IMG/VR virus record: IMGVR_UViG_3300043449_000260
Span: 1-46,955 of that record
Strand: one strand, 5' to 3'
Length of the DNA: 46,955 nt
From: a virus
The notes under the pieces were generated by a model. The model was not told the origin of the DNA, did no database searches, and was given only the letters and a program-made list of their open reading frames with translations. A program made the position numbers and the translations under genes. Shown in pieces: positions 10,819-46,955 of this stretch; within the stretch, counting starts at the first letter, position 1, and every line of letters begins with the position of its first letter.

Positions 10819-13734
10819 TCACTGTAAAGTTTTTGTTTTAAATCTATTTAGTGTAGACTTTGCTTGAAAATTATAAGGATTATTTTTATCGTCACATATT
10901 CCATCATAGGCTATTAAATAAGGATTAATGTCGATAGGATCTAGGCTTTTTGAAACAAATTCAAAAGGAGCTTCACTTACTGGATCTACAGTATATCCTA
11001 GAATTTGACCATAGTCTACTACCCAATGTGGAGCAAAGTAAGCATCTGAATTATTTTGCTCTAAAGACGACATTAGGATATCTCCAAGCATAAGAAACGA
11101 ATCTTGTGATGGTGTGTGGAAATAGTTGTTTTCTCCATCGTCAAAACCGTATGTAGACCGGTTTGTACTTGAGGCATTTAAAGATGTCTTTAACGCATTA
11201 AAATTAGTTATTTCATCTAAACAAGCGTAAACACCTGACCACATATATTTTGTAAGAGTTCCCGATGGCCAAGTTTGTGCCGTGACAATTTCGGCATCAC
11301 TTTGTTCAGGCAATATCCAAGGTTTTTTGGGAGATAGAAATCCACCTTTTGGATTAATAGAAGTGTTTGCTGTAGCTACAAATTTTACTTTTTGTAAAGT
11401 ATCATAACTGCTATTTGGAGTAACATCAATAGATTCTTTTGTCCACCAGTCTACCTTTGGCCCAAATACAGGACCCACCACAAAAACACAAATTTCATCT
11501 GGAAGCAATCCAGCTCTTCTTGCGGCTATAGAAATTTGTCTAGTTAAATCTACTAAATATGATTGGGACCATCCACCTAAATATCCACTACCTGGACTAG
11601 CTGCATCTTCCTTTAAAGCATGATGAAGAACAACAATTTTTTTTCTGTCTTGATTTTGTTGTCTAAACTTAATAGTGTGAAATAATTCAGTTAGCATTCC
11701 AAGAGCAGTATGCTCTCCTTTACCATCAAAAGCATATCCAAAATCTCCAGTTCTTAAGTCGTCATTCATATGAACAAAGGTAAAAGATATTCCATTTAAA
11801 TCGTTATTGTTCTGGCCCCATTGAGTGGTTATTACATTGTTACCGAGTAGTTTTGTTGCAGCATTTGATGTATTAAATCCAGTAAATGAAAGTGCTAGTC
11901 TAGTAGCATCACTATGGGCTGTTAAATCTACAGAAAGAGAATACCTTAATCTTTGTGGAACTGGTGTAGGAATTTGAATTAAACCGGTTTCATTTATAAC
12001 ATTTTCAGCTATACGAGTCCAAGTTGTTCCACCGCCTGTAGTTTGTTTGGAAATTGTTATAGGAACCGTACTATTACCAGGATAGGTTTCCTTTACAGTG
12101 CCATCTTCTGTGTTATTAGCATAATCATTTTGGAACTTCCAATACTGAACATAGTAAGTAAAACTATTTGTTGTATACAGTGAATTTGTAGTACTTAGGG
12201 TTGATGTAGTAATTGCAAGATTAGGAGAAGTAACATAGGAATCAAATTTCTTTCCTAACTTTGTATTGCAAATAATCTTCTTATCTTTATAGTATGTGTT
12301 AGTTCCACCGCTCCATTCGGTTTTCCAAATAAAAGGTCCATAAGTTCCTGAAACAGCTGGAGTATAATTTTCTTGTGGAAAATAACCATCTCCCGCACCT
12401 AATGCATCTTGACCAAACTCAAAAAAAGTTTTATATGGTATGTTTGTTCCCATTGTAAAACCAAATGGAACAATGCTATATGCAATTAGGGGAGGAAGAC
12501 CTAGATGTTCTGCATCGTACATACTACCAAATGTCGAAAGATGTTGTTCAGTGGTAAAGTTATCTCTAATTGATGAAAAGAGCGCAGAAGTACTTTGTAC
12601 TGGAAAAAGAAATTCACTTCCCTGTGCGTTATATTTAAATGGTAGATTTCTTTTAAACACTACTACATTAATAACATTATTTGTTTCTAAGCTTCTCTTA
12701 AAAGGTAAAGTAGCGTTTGCAATATAGGCATCTTCGTTTCCAGTGCAGTTATTTTCACAAGTAGTCCAGCCTTTTTGTCTTAGGATAGGAAATAGGTGTG
12801 TTTTGAGATCTAATATATAGGTAATGTTTCCACCACTAACTACTAAATCATTTCGACCTAATGCTTGAATCCCAGAAATGTTCAATCCAACAGCAAGTAT
12901 AGTATTATCAGGGATTCTATATTGAGAACTCATTTGTGTTGTTCTATATAGGGTCCTTACGGTTTCAGAAATTTTCATTTCTGTAATTATTCCAGTAGTG
13001 GTGTTATAGGTAGCTACTACTGTAGAAAAGCTTGTAGTTTCTCCAGCACCCAACTCTTTGGTACATAAATTTGGAGTTCCTCTTAGGGTTGGATATCCAT
13101 TAGGACCTACATTTACAGCAGTTGTCCATCTCTTTGTATCACTTGAACTACCAATTTGTAATGCTGTTAATAAATTTTCACTACCTCCATCACCATTTAA
13201 AACAAAAGTTGCCTTTCTGTTGTTTGGTGTATTGGTAACATAAGAAAGAAAAACTCCAGTATTGTCTATATTTGTATCGCTTATTAAGGGAACTGGAAGT
13301 CTAGGATTACCGCTAATATCTGTAGCATAATAATAAGCTTCAGATCCATATCTAGTTCCAACCAAACAACGACCCGCACCTATTGCGTTTCCTGCTTGGC
13401 CTATATTTTTCCAATCTTGCGCTAGTGGATTAAATCCAACTTTTGGAGGAGCAAAGTGATTGCCCCAATAAATTGGAGTAGCATATAAAGTTCTATTACT
13501 GGGAAGGTTAGGACTATAAAGAATAGCCTTGGCAATTCCATCTGCTAAACCACCAACTAAATTACCGCCTTGGTTTGTATCCTCAAAATAAACATTTCTA
13601 TTTCCATAGATTATAACATCAGTCCTTCCTGAATTGTTGTCAAACAAAAAATGTTTTAACATTTCATAAGGATTTCTTTTATCTCTATCTACAAAAGCCG
13701 TAGTGTAATATCCAGTTGGTCTAGTAAATGGCAT
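10819..13734 (-). CDS. Very large fibre-like protein, possible hydrolase domain (971 aa)
   Basis: 971 residues, Asn/Thr/Ser/Tyr-rich and predicted beta-rich for most of its length, consistent with a surface or tail appendage. Around residues 650-780 the character changes to a mixed alpha/beta core with IVVLHHALKED, SYLVDLTRQISIAARRAG and EICVFVVGP, the strand-helix-strand look of SGNH/GDSL-type esterase folds. I cannot assign a clear Ser-Asp-His triad, so enzymatic activity is only a suggestion. It lies in the head operon, not beside gp17. It could be a deacetylating tailspike or a pure adhesin. Confidence 0.6.
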   Translation of the reverse strand: MPFTRPTGYYTTAFVDRDKRNPYEMLKHFLFDNNSGRTDVIIYGNRNVYFEDTNQGGNLVGGLADGIAKAILYSPNLPSNRTLYATPIYWGNHFAPPKVGFNPLAQDWKNIGQAGNAIGAGRCLVGTRYGSEAYYYATDISGNPRLPVPLISDTNIDNTGVFLSYVTNTPNNRKATFVLNGDGGSENLLTALQIGSSSDTKRWTTAVNVGPNGYPTLRGTPNLCTKELGAGETTSFSTVVATYNTTTGIITEMKISETVRTLYRTTQMSSQYRIPDNTILAVGLNISGIQALGRNDLVVSGGNITYILDLKTHLFPILRQKGWTTCENNCTGNEDAYIANATLPFKRSLETNNVINVVVFKRNLPFKYNAQGSEFLFPVQSTSALFSSIRDNFTTEQHLSTFGSMYDAEHLGLPPLIAYSIVPFGFTMGTNIPYKTFFEFGQDALGAGDGYFPQENYTPAVSGTYGPFIWKTEWSGGTNTYYKDKKIICNTKLGKKFDSYVTSPNLAITTSTLSTTNSLYTTNSFTYYVQYWKFQNDYANNTEDGTVKETYPGNSTVPITISKQTTGGGTTWTRIAENVINETGLIQIPTPVPQRLRYSLSVDLTAHSDATRLALSFTGFNTSNAATKLLGNNVITTQWGQNNNDLNGISFTFVHMNDDLRTGDFGYAFDGKGEHTALGMLTELFHTIKFRQQNQDRKKIVVLHHALKEDAASPGSGYLGGWSQSYLVDLTRQISIAARRAGLLPDEICVFVVGPVFGPKVDWWTKESIDVTPNSSYDTLQKVKFVATANTSINPKGGFLSPKKPWILPEQSDAEIVTAQTWPSGTLTKYMWSGVYACLDEITNFNALKTSLNASSTNRSTYGFDDGENNYFHTPSQDSFLMLGDILMSSLEQNNSDAYFAPHWVVDYGQILGYTVDPVSEAPFEFVSKSLDPIDINPYLIAYDGICDDKNNPYNFQAKSTLNRFKTKTLQ

Positions 13735-42427: not shown

Positions 42428-42695
42428 GTTAACTCTCCTATAAAGGCGTACTCTCAACGCGAGAGTACATCTTATAAGGAACTCCGAATTGCCCGCTCGG
42501 AGTAACACGGTGGCTGATTACATAAGTATGGATTGCCAGCGTCCATACCCACTCCGCTGCACTCGGAGTTTATTGCACCCCTAGGTGCAGAACCTAGGTG
42601 AACCATGGCCAATGGCGTATCTACTAACTAAGCGTTAGCAGAGTCCGATACACCCCTAACTGCCTCCAGATCGGGAGGATGGGTGCGGGTAGTTT

Positions 42696-42723
42696 TGAGC
42701 AGTTTAACAGGACATGCTCAGGT
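42696..42723 (-). repeat. Covarying hairpin motif, copy 1
   Basis: Minus strand ACCTGAGCA...TAAACTGCTCA. Stem GAGCA/TGCTC, preceded by ACCT; loop ends AAAC. Confidence 0.75.
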
Positions 42724-42787
42724 CTGCAAGTCGGGTATCCTGTGCACCGCTGCTCCCAGCTATTTGGATACTTGCCTTGCTGTGTCT

Positions 42788-42813
42788 TGAGTAGTTTCTC
42801 GACATACTCAGGT
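42788..42813 (-). repeat. Covarying hairpin motif, copy 2
   Basis: Minus strand ACCTGAGTA...GAAACTACTCA. The stem becomes GAGTA/TACTC: both partners of one pair changed together relative to copy 1. Confidence 0.75.
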
Positions 42814-42907
42814 CGGAACAGCGTTTAGATTACCGTGGTCGCTGCTGTCTGTAGACCACTAACCAAATAGAGAATTTGGTTGGGCTCCTCTTGGAGCGAT
42901 AAATCCA

Positions 42908-42938
42908 GAATAGTTTTGATGACCAGAGCATATTCAGG
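42908..42938 (-). repeat. Covarying hairpin motif, copy 3
   Basis: Minus strand GCCTGAATA...AAAACTATTC, stem GAATA/TATTC: a second pair has also changed in both partners. The loop is longer than in other copies. Confidence 0.65.
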
Positions 42939-43088
42939 CTCGGTTGGCTTGGGGAACTAGTATACCCCAAACCTACAAACAAGTGGTGTCCCCGATTTAT
43001 ATGCCGCCTAGGGACGGTTGCTTGCGGTGCCCAGGATTGCCAATCCTATGTGGGCCTTCCCCTTGCGGGGAGAATGCCTGTTGGGAGA

Positions 43089-43331
43089 TTAAACTCCCCG
43101 TACAGGCGGAAAGGGTATGCCCCTTTTGTAGAGCTCATTTTGTAGAGCATTGATCTGGTCCAGAAGAACATCCCGTTGATCGTGAAGCCCTTCTAAAACC
43201 TTTTCCAGATCTGTCTTGAGATTCCCGAAGTCACCCCAAGAAAGGTTTGGTCCATAGGTATCCCATGGACGGTCTTGAACTATGTCCATGTAAACGAATG
43301 GACACATTCCGAGTTTATACTTACTCGTCAT
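43089..43331 (-). CDS. Unknown coiled-coil protein between the two RNA regions (80 aa)
   Basis: 80 residues. N-terminal KLGMCPFVYMDIVQDRPWDT and WGDFGNLKTDLEKVLEGLHD, then a helical DQRDVLLDQINALQNELYKR suited to a coiled coil, ending in Pro-rich IPFPPVRGV. AAGGGAAGT precedes ATG 43331. It is the only credible ORF in about 2 kb and is isolated between two structured regions. Function unknown; an RNA-partner role is a guess from context. Confidence 0.68.
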   Translation of the reverse strand: MTSKYKLGMCPFVYMDIVQDRPWDTYGPNLSWGDFGNLKTDLEKVLEGLHDQRDVLLDQINALQNELYKRGIPFPPVRGV

Positions 43332-44011
43332 GTTGACTTCCCTTCTGCCGTTAAGTGGCGTAAATACCGTGGGAAGATTCGAACCTCCCAATAGTGTGGC
43401 ATACATGGTGGATATGGATACTTGACTCACCATAAGTCAAGGAACATCCCACACTACACAACCTGTCGGCAAATACTTCTTAATAGTTTCCCACTAAGAA
43501 GCATGGGAGCCTTTATCTTATCCCGCTGCGGCTCATTACGGGACTGCACAGGTGTTAATCCCTCCAAACCTCAAGCCACCACGCAACTTGAGAGGGAAAA
43601 GACCACCTAGCGTTTCCACTAGGAGGTCCCATGTAACCCTATTTGCCCTACCAGATATGGAATGTGGGTTTAGGTATTCCATACGAGTTAGCCCTTGACC
43701 GTTGAAACTGGCGATAGTTGCCGTAGGTGTTTCAAGTCTACGGTTGCCACGGCTGTAGCAGTCGGGACCCCCCATTGTTATGGGAGGGGGCGCCTTGGAC
43801 CTAACCCCTATTTATACTCGTCCAAGCGAGTTGTTGATGTAGGCTACCACCCTACAGACCTTCAACAAAGGCTCACCCATTTAGGTACGTCATTGGCGGT
43901 GGGATTCCGCCTTAGATGAGACTGGATCTCAGCTAAAGACGTTTGAGAAGTGTCATAAAACACCCCCTTTCTGTGTATACCCATTGCAAGTACAACATGC
44001 AATGACAGAAG

Positions 44012-44038
44012 TGAGCAGTTTACTACACTTGCTCAGGT
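44012..44038 (-). repeat. Covarying hairpin motif, copy 4
   Basis: Minus strand ACCTGAGCA...TAAACTGCTCA, stem as in copy 1, different loop. Confidence 0.75.
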
Positions 44039-44174
44039 GCCTAGTTACGTCAATGATTCCCTTACAAGAATCGTGCCCTAACTAGCGGGATAGAGCCCTT
44101 TTTATGGTAGGGCTTAGTTATGCTCAGGCCCTCCTGCCCAGTTAATTGGTAACTTGCCAGGTTGCATACACCAT

Positions 44175-44200
44175 TGAGCAGTTTAAATACATGCTCAGGT
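44175..44200 (-). repeat. Covarying hairpin motif, copy 5
   Basis: Minus strand ACCTGAGCATGT...TTAAACTGCTCA, stem as in copy 1; ACCT and AAAC conserved. Confidence 0.75.
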
Positions 44201-44360
44201 ATACGGAACTCGCATCCGTAGCCGACATCATAGCATAGCTATGGCAAGGCTTTACTTCCTGATAACTCACCTATCAGGTAATGTCTACGAGTAAGCCAAG
44301 TCGTAGAGTACACCATTAAGGCACTACCCATTCCATAGAATGGCTAGTTGGTGATTTGAA

Positions 44361-44410
44361 AGGTAGCCTACAGGTTTCCCTATAGGCCACCACGGTCCCC
44401 GTCAGGGGAC
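44361..44410 (-). terminator. Two-hairpin terminator cassette (GTCCCC repeat variant)
   Basis: GTCCCC-TGAC-GGGGAC (44395-44410), GTGGTG, then GCCTATAGG-GAAA-CCTGTAGGC (44366-44387) and TACCTTTC. Same plan as 41757-41811 with altered loop and compensatory pairs. It follows the stop of the 86-residue gene by two bases and precedes structured region B, so it could be either a terminator or the 5' processing border of the RNA. Confidence 0.7.
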
Positions 44411-44411
44411 G

Positions 44412-44672
44412 TTAGGCTGTAACCAGCCCACGCTCATGGGCCTCCGTCAGGATGGCCTTGACGGTCTCAGGACGGCGAGCCTTGCCATCCAGGACCATCT
44501 TGACAAGATTCATGACCTGACGATCATTGAGCTTCTTGTAGTTCCCAGGCCAGTTCTCGTCACCCTTGCTGGTGATCGTGATCTTGCCGGAACTGAGCAT
44601 CGCCTGAATGGGATCGAACTGAACGATCTCACCCTGGGGCACGGTATCAGACTGCGTATTGTCTGCGCACAT
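44412..44672 (-). CDS. Unknown small protein (86 aa)
   Basis: 86 residues; polar start, then GNYKKLNDRQVMNLVKMVLD and a helical end (RRPETVKAILTEAHERGLV). Codons end in C/G much more often than in the replication genes. AGGAGAGG precedes ATG 44672. No family recognised. Confidence 0.68.
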   Translation of the reverse strand: MCADNTQSDTVPQGEIVQFDPIQAMLSSGKITITSKGDENWPGNYKKLNDRQVMNLVKMVLDGKARRPETVKAILTEAHERGLVTA

Positions 44673-45649: not shown

Positions 45650-46955
45650 TCAGAACTTCATCCACCCAGTGTGGTGAGCGATGGACCAGTGGATGAGGTC
45701 CATCTGCTTGTCCGAGAGCGGCTTGGGAGCCTCCTGACCGTTGTCGATCAGGAACTTGTCCACACTCGGAACGTACTGATCCACGAAGCGATGGAGGACA
45801 GGACGAACGATCCGATGCATGTCCACGGCCTGACGAACAGGCACGATGAACGCATCGTGAACCGCCGCGTGTCCCACATAGCGACCCCAGTAGCGGAGCT
45901 GCCACTTGCGGATCGCACGGAACATCATCATGCGGATCCACGCATCGGCCTGGTGGGTCATGCGAACCACCAGACTGTAGGGATCAGCGATGTCGTGCAT
46001 CTCACCGATGCTGACCTCCATGCCCTTCGGGAAGAACCGCTGGCACCCGATGCCGTTGTAGCGGCACCGGATCACCTTCCCACCGGACATGATCTCCCAC
46101 TTGTGGTGGTTGTAGGTCCAGCCACCGATGTTGGTGAACGACGGCTTCCGTCCCGTTCGCGTGGTGTACGCACGACCAGCCTTCTCGATGGACTGGCAGT
46201 ACTCCTTCAGGGTGTGGTAAGCACCCCAAAAGGAATTGTAGTACTCCGAGGACAGATCGTACAGGGCCGAGTAGCCCTCGACCCAGCCCAGCTCACGGAT
46301 GATGTGCAGATAGTCCTCGTTGAAGAGGTTCCTGTTGTCAGTCCAGAGCTTGTCCATCACCTTCTCGTTGGGAAGGTTGATGGGCGAGAGCCAGCTGAGC
46401 GGAGCCTTCTTGGGATCATCCCAGAAGAGACCCGCCACAGCCCCGCGAGGACCCTGACCGTAGGTGGTCTGGGTCACGAAGGGCTTTGCCGTGTCCTTGG
46501 ACTTGAGCTTCGATTCCCACTTCTTGAGAGAGTTGGGAACGACCACCAGCTCTGCCACCGTGCGGCGGCAGTCCCGGTTGTCAGCACCGAACATGCTGGT
46601 GTCAGCCATCATGTTGCGGTCACGGCTCATGAGACCCAGCGCCATGGGTCCGCTGGTGACGAAGTCAGACTCCAGATGCGCTCCGCTGAAGCCAGTCTTG
46701 ATCACCTCATCAAAGAACACGGCCATGCGAAGCGAGAGCCACGGATTCTTGAACTTGCCTCCCAGCAGGGTATCCTGCCAGTTGACCAGCACCTCCTCGT
46801 GGTTATCCAGGTTCACCCCTGACGCATCCTCAATGATCTTGTCGATCCCGAGGTAGCGCAGGTTCGGGCCGTACCACGTCTGGTAGTAGAACTCCAGGGT
46901 GTTGCGAATCATCTGGTTACCCGTGTAGGTCACCAGACCCTCGCCGTACTCGCGG
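45650..46955 (-). CDS. Second single-subunit RNA polymerase, C-terminal part (open at window edge)
   Basis: 434 codons visible; the frame is open through 46955 (residues REYGEGL precede the GTG at 46933), so the N-terminal part is missing. Counting from that GTG, polymerase motifs are in the right order: motif A HLESDFVTSGPMALGLMSRD with Asp90, motif B KPFVTQTTYGQG (Lys150, Tyr158), MTHQADAWIRMM (T7 HSQDGSHLRKT), and motif C AAVHDAFIVP with Asp360. D-x-V-T-x-G-P in motif A is closer to N4-type than to T7 polymerases. It could be an N4 RNAPII-like early polymerase. Codon use is distinctly GC-rich. Confidence 0.78.
   Translation of the reverse strand, partial: REYGEGLVTYTGNQMIRNTLEFYYQTWYGPNLRYLGIDKIIEDASGVNLDNHEEVLVNWQDTLLGGKFKNPWLSLRMAVFFDEVIKTGFSGAHLESDFVTSGPMALGLMSRDRNMMADTSMFGADNRDCRRTVAELVVVPNSLKKWESKLKSKDTAKPFVTQTTYGQGPRGAVAGLFWDDPKKAPLSWLSPINLPNEKVMDKLWTDNRNLFNEDYLHIIRELGWVEGYSALYDLSSEYYNSFWGAYHTLKEYCQSIEKAGRAYTTRTGRKPSFTNIGGWTYNHHKWEIMSGGKVIRCRYNGIGCQRFFPKGMEVSIGEMHDIADPYSLVVRMTHQADAWIRMMMFRAIRKWQLRYWGRYVGHAAVHDAFIVPVRQAVDMHRIVRPVLHRFVDQYVPSVDKFLIDNGQEAPKPLSDKQMDLIHWSIAHHTGWMKF

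Follow-up and report, generated by a model that had tools for sequence, protein, structure and literature searches.

The 46,955-nt viral DNA analyzed here, hereafter the window, contains between two of its genes a stretch of almost 2 kb that the original prediction had described as two ORF-poor, densely folded parts. Which product does this locus encode? The structured region spans positions 42434–44411 on the minus strand, co-directional with all neighboring genes. Since the boundary of an 86-aa gene lies at 44412 and the next gene starts at 42433, the region is a little longer than earlier stated, reaching to 44411 and not to 44360. About 1.7 kb of it is noncoding: the sole ORF with a coding signal is one of 80 codons (43331–43089, minus strand), and the noncoding status of the two ORF-poor stretches was upheld. 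The 80-codon gene belongs to no known family; matches to protein families were looked for, and neither the 80-aa nor the 86-aa protein had one in Pfam or PHROG. Dense folding was confirmed in 160-nt segments, which were more stable inside the region than elsewhere, significantly so on the minus strand (mean fold z −1.96 vs −0.77, Mann–Whitney p 0.0016; plus strand −1.29 vs −0.62, p 0.08). The GC content is 0.49, compared to 0.43 for the whole window. Sigma-70 promoters were no commoner in the region than expected by chance.

Conservation of the fold in a homologous contig

The only homologue found, L003, is part of a 33.8-kb IMG/VR contig and was reached via the 86-aa protein. It has the gene order of the window, with the 86-aa and then the 80-aa gene each followed by a structured region, lacks about 255 nt that the window has before the 80-aa gene, and carries additional structured sequence of its own on the 3' side. 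The segment missing from L003 at that place is a window-specific structured insertion at 43342–43600 (minus strand). Searches for further relatives with the 80-aa protein and with the 427-aa protein described below led just to L003 and a neighboring-genome fragment (L002), and the whole region had no DNA similarity to named phages and plasmids. Contig L004, which matches the 86-aa protein over a short stretch, was rejected as a relative, similarity to the region being absent.

Three blocks of about 90–120 nt are almost or wholly identical in the window and L003, whereas the coding neighbor varies. The 80-aa proteins share 66% identity. Differences in the 80-codon gene are strongly biased towards third codon positions (17/18/46 by position), while those of the upstream noncoding RNA (44/41/32) lack codon periodicity where tested. 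The consensus fold of the two sequences over 44411–43594 accommodates 16 two-sided and 18 one-sided compatible changes, and its energy of −240 kcal/mol compares to −172 ± 8 and −188 ± 9 under two kinds of simulated divergence. When the fold was predicted from the window only, 12 pairs were compensatory, against 2.9 under a uniform and 3.8 under a clustered null, and 39 were broken (57 and 52, respectively). Pairs thus covary between the window and L003, which contradicts an absence of conserved pairing and supports the proposed large structured phage RNA, or two with the 80-residue gene between them; because L003 is the sole homologue found, the covariation outside the pseudoknots described below rests on two sequences. 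That a real structured RNA is encoded on the minus strand is nearly certain. The suggestion that its family may be new agrees with cmscan results: the covariance models of GOLLD and ROOL had no match in the region at E ≤ 1, OLE and HEARO had none either, and the Pistol ribozyme alone was found.

The 5' module (44371–44411, minus strand) consists of a GUCCCC..GGGGAC hairpin followed by an GUGGCCUAUAGGGAAACCUGUAGGCUAC hairpin with compensatory changes in L003. Its first hairpin is a repeated element, UAUCGUCCCC-UUCG-GGGGACCGUGGUGG, present at window positions 44410, 44775, 41810 and 33044 (minus strand) and also at 12152 and 12597 (plus strand) of contig L125. In at least some places a stop codon immediately precedes the element, and at two window sites (the 5' module and 41810) a second hairpin of the GGAAAC/GAGAAA type follows; in this phage it may act as a promoter, in processing or as a terminator. 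At the other end, a 3' hairpin GUACUCUC..GAGAGUAC with a UCCUUAUAAG/CUUUAUAGGA extension (42436–42480, minus strand) shows an A-U/G-C change in L003, and its extension base-pairs with what is likely to be the ribosome-binding site of the next gene (start at 42433). The part aligning to L003 is closed by a terminator-like GAAA-capped hairpin followed by UUUU (43597–43628, minus strand), a possible RNA 3' end, although terminator-like sites in the region do not exceed the number expected by chance. Parts not common to both homologues hold T-arm-like hairpins, one in the window (GGGAGGUUCGAAUCUUCCC, 43371–43389, minus strand), where the rest of a tRNA is absent, and two GGGGUUCGAAUCCCC hairpins in the 3' region of L003 (about 10067 and 10131, plus strand). 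In both genomes they read G(G)GGUUCGAAUCCCC, with no recognizable tRNA. ARAGORN found no tRNA or tmRNA in the region, the TTCGAATC hairpins being just T-arm-like.

The Pistol ribozyme and the duplicated pseudoknot module

The Pistol self-cleaving ribozyme (Rfam RF02679) is located at 43763–43831 on the minus strand. It matches the covariance model over its full length (1–68) with 48.5 bits, against a gathering score of 34.5, and the copy in L003 reaches 48 bits, likewise above the gathering score. Similar to other members of the family, the window copy comprises P1, the loop pseudoknot, P2, P3 and the G|U junction. Pistol ribozymes cleave themselves at the GU joining P3 to P2 (PMC4604425); this junction is present at 43768/43767, and the cut is predicted between G43768 and U43767. 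In contrast to Pistol ribozymes standing alone, this one forms part of a region of about 2 kb. The ribozyme is very probably functional. Should the hairpin at 43628–43597 act as a terminator, transcription would yield a first RNA of about 815 nt, which Pistol would split into pieces of about 640 and 170 nt; such sites, however, are no commoner here than by chance. A pattern built on the Pistol edges returned six new contigs, all of them chance matches.

The region further contains five H-type pseudoknots of the CCUGAGYAN-GU..-AAAC-URCUC type, all on the minus strand. Their general form is a first stem S1 of 3–4 bp (NNAC/GUNN), a second stem S2 of 5 bp (GAGYA/URCUC) and an AAAC loop. PK1 (44176–44202), PK2 (44013–44040) and PK5 (42697–42724) share the S2 pairing GAGCA/UGCUC and have the S1 stems AUAC/GUAU, GCAC/GUGU and GAC/GUC, respectively. 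PK4 (42789–42815) combines S1 CGAC/GUCG with S2 GAGUA/UACUC, and PK3 (42908–42941), with a long loop 3, combines GAGC/GCUC with GAAUA/UAUUC. Hence the S1 sequence differs in each of the five, and S2 pairs are also altered in PK3 and PK4. No such pseudoknot occurs elsewhere in the window or in 100 dinucleotide shuffles. L003 keeps PK1, PK2 and PK5 intact, all within the RNA, and PK4 can be seen there by eye, minus one S2 pair. A cmscan of 42680–42960 against Rfam gave no match at E ≤ 10.

PK1–PK2 and PK4–PK5 each bracket a copy of the paralogous conserved block GCAAGUNNCCAANUANCUGGG (44137–44157 and 42755–42775, minus strand), forming two pseudoknot-block-pseudoknot modules that flank the Pistol ribozyme and the 80-codon gene, one on each side. 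As a DNA pattern the duplicated core block retrieved L003 alone from IMG/VR and nothing from genomes. Within another hairpin, GGGCCUGAGCAUAACUAAGCCC at 44132–44110 (minus strand) includes a pseudoknot-like 5' half (CCUGAGCAU) that is unchanged in L003. The original prediction holds in its structured RNA; the assignment to the minus strand, the Pistol ribozyme, the repeated pseudoknot with its spread among phages and the duplicated module were absent from it.

Distribution of the pseudoknot in phages and cells

Scans of viral collections retrieved at least 120 stretches with a pattern that fixed position +10 as U, and at least 120 with +10 as A. Among the matches listed, the free base at −1 was A in 114/114 of the former and U in 126/126 of the latter, so that S1 covaried at the search-free base in 240/240. 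The unconstrained pair −2/+11 was formed in 114/114 and 125/126 of these listed matches (58 and 52 in shuffles; 239/240 overall), and the pair following it in 86/114 and 111/126. This covariation is decisive: the pseudoknot is, beyond reasonable doubt, a real conserved RNA structure. An Rfam entry for it was not found, and eight pseudoknot-bearing loci had no Rfam match at their pseudoknots. No description of it in phages was found in the literature searched, and it is apparently a widespread, undescribed RNA part. At 1466–1419 (minus strand) of an unrelated viral contig (L311), a DUF3800-XI RNA (RF02975) scored above its cut-off.

In phages, the pseudoknots lie nearly always in short intergenic gaps, a median of 34 nt past a stop codon and 57 nt ahead of the next ORF, and inside genes in 6/127 cases (all among the matches listed), the placement that an element of mRNA boundaries or mRNA stability would be expected to have. 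They occur in phages that infect lactobacilli, cyanobacteria, roseobacters and actinobacteria, and in crAss-like phages. In Lactobacillus phage phiAQ113 the pseudoknot precedes the scaffold and capsid genes, in Roseobacter SIO1 and Lentibacter ICBM1 phages it follows ribonucleotide reductase, in Arthrobacter phage Amigo it is situated after the SSB gene and before tRNAs, and in the crAss-like cr7_1 it lies beside replication genes; the structures in these named phages were verified. Cultured carriers of the pseudoknot further include Bacillus phage Page and Synechococcus phage S-H35. Six phage or prophage contigs (L098, L104, L231, L007, L225 and L189) have three to five pseudoknots each, distributed over several gene boundaries. 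Since the seemingly long noncoding gaps of other pseudoknot-bearing contigs appear to be mostly small-gene regions, a second large RNA studded with pseudoknots is not claimed.

Among 84,980 cellular genomes scanned, 70 copies were found, 60 of them with S1. Counting pseudoknot-bearing genomes alone, RNase J was above the curated cut-off in 37 of 50 bacterial and archaeal genomes and just below it in three alphaproteobacterial ones, yet the Ignavibacteria chromosome CP054675, with five pattern matches, had no convincing RNase J match. No pseudoknot-like match occurred in 5,426 E. coli genomes, in a search that reaches near-consensus copies only. E. coli is not known to possess RNase J. Together, the presence of RNase J and the absence from E. 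coli are only suggestive of a link between the pseudoknot and this enzyme.

Possible functions of the RNA

There are few large phage RNAs, and what they do is obscure. In the RNA of the window, working parts can be recognized, namely the ribozyme, whose cut site is predicted, and the pseudoknot, which is repeated; this RNA is hence directly testable. The reading we prefer, at a probability of roughly 40%, is that of a large phage RNA which processes itself and has as its building block a pseudoknot common among phages; the pseudoknot probably stabilizes RNA or marks boundaries. The minus strand would encode one long or two adjacent structured RNAs, whose transcript would cleave itself at G43768/U43767. 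The 5' product, about 640 nt long, would end in a 2',3'-cyclic phosphate, and the downstream piece would begin with a 5'-OH. By forming compact barriers that halt exoribonucleases, the pseudoknots may allow defined, stable pieces to accumulate, and in many other phages the same barrier may serve at the gene boundaries of polycistronic mRNAs.

The idea of a barrier is drawn from coremin, or xrRNA-C (GUCCGAAGACGUUAAACUAC), an element found in RNA viruses of plants and fungi. Its hp1 loop follows the consensus YGAD or YGNNAD, 7-nt loops being allowed; the 7-nt loop CGAGUAA is active and stalls Xrn1 (PMC10520033). A second hairpin, hp2, lies directly downstream in coremin. The phage pseudoknot resembles coremin in its short hairpin with a Y-G-(3 nt)-A-N loop and a subsequent AAAC-U-R-C strand, and in being intergenic or placed in UTRs, sometimes in tandem. 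Unlike coremin, it occurs in dsDNA phages, has an extra C ahead of the loop motif, and pairs its loop strand GAGYA over 5 bp with URCUC. Its loop of C+UGAGYAN, 8 nt in all, is near yet outside the published hp1 consensus. The likeness to the coremin spacer GUUAAACUAC also has to be read with care, since the search pattern already prescribed AAAC-U-R-C; in the window, all five copies have AAAC-U-R-Y at the end, preceded by varying letters. This resemblance, together with the placement after stop and before start codons, makes an exonuclease-stop or mRNA-end role the best single guess. As an exonuclease barrier proper, the pseudoknot is a tentative proposal that we rate below even odds; the pseudoknots are not at the very ends of the RNA but about 200 nt away from its presumed 5' end, which speaks against it. 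If the pseudoknot does block nucleases, phages would use a trick known from eukaryotic RNA viruses. The broader view, that dsDNA phages share an exonuclease-resistant counterpart of coremin at gene boundaries, of which five copies plus Pistol would make up a new class of self-maturing, nuclease-armored large RNA, is speculative and rather unlikely by our analysis.

Alternatively, the region may be a cis-acting operon spacer, i.e. very long UTRs setting the expression of the small flanking genes (the 80-aa gene and that starting at 42433), with Pistol separating messages and the pseudoknots controlling ribosome entry or reinitiation. The co-directional genes, the 3' hairpin pairing with a ribosome-binding site, the position of the pseudoknot between stop codon and next start in other phages, and the ability of coremin motifs to block scanning ribosomes as well (PMC10520033) are all in line with this. 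However, some 1.7 kb with two paralogous modules and blocks of about 100 nt identical to L003 beside a variable gene far exceeds the needs of a UTR, and we consider a mere spacer unlikely.

The T4 gene 32 pseudoknot provides a different precedent: this H-type pseudoknot, located in the leader of a phage mRNA, is bound by gp32; it is present in one copy and differs in sequence and loop lengths. By analogy, the pseudoknots of the window could bind a phage or host RNA-binding protein, for which the large RNA would be a multivalent scaffold or sponge. The presence of five sites in a single RNA would suit this role, as would the near-invariant CU, GAGYA and AAAC-URCUC letters beyond pairing, although the search pattern itself fixed most of these. 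The SSB gene preceding the pseudoknot in Amigo and an 82-aa protein with a weak SSB PHROG match, encoded 0.4 kb downstream, point in the same direction. Yet a triplex-stabilized H-type pseudoknot may need those same letters, the phages concerned infect very different hosts with no common gene seen beside the pseudoknot. Protein binding of this kind is improbable.

Slightly harder to sustain is a GOLLD/ROOL-like RNA forming an RNA-only multimer, in which the pseudoknots and the T-arm-like hairpins would serve assembly or docking. Like GOLLD and ROOL, the RNA is long, ornate, phage-borne and without known function; it falls into a similar size class with many pseudoknots, and tRNAs are sometimes found in GOLLD linkers (PMC12286853). 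Neither family matches in sequence or structure, however, and unlike either the RNA contains a ribozyme of the self-cleaving kind, a gene within it and a pseudoknot in several copies, and does not adjoin the tRNA genes at 30.6–31.6 kb; a search of PMC12286853 showed no mention of self-cleavage or a ribozyme for GOLLD or ROOL. Finally, decayed or recoded protein genes that happen to fold well were rejected as very improbable: although 84% of the region becomes open when TAG is taken as a sense codon, codon periodicity is absent, the conserved fold has compensatory changes, Pistol is intact in both homologues and the pseudoknots covary.

Two other genes of the window were observed in passing. 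An 811-aa single-subunit phage RNA polymerase (PF00940; 35730–38165, minus strand) shares about 28% identity with podovirus polymerases, e.g. those of Rhizobium phages and LUZ100. The 427-aa protein (45650–46933, minus strand; 604 aa in L003) had no Pfam, PHROG or phage tblastn match, and its stretch HQADAW...HDAF may recall polymerase palm motifs.
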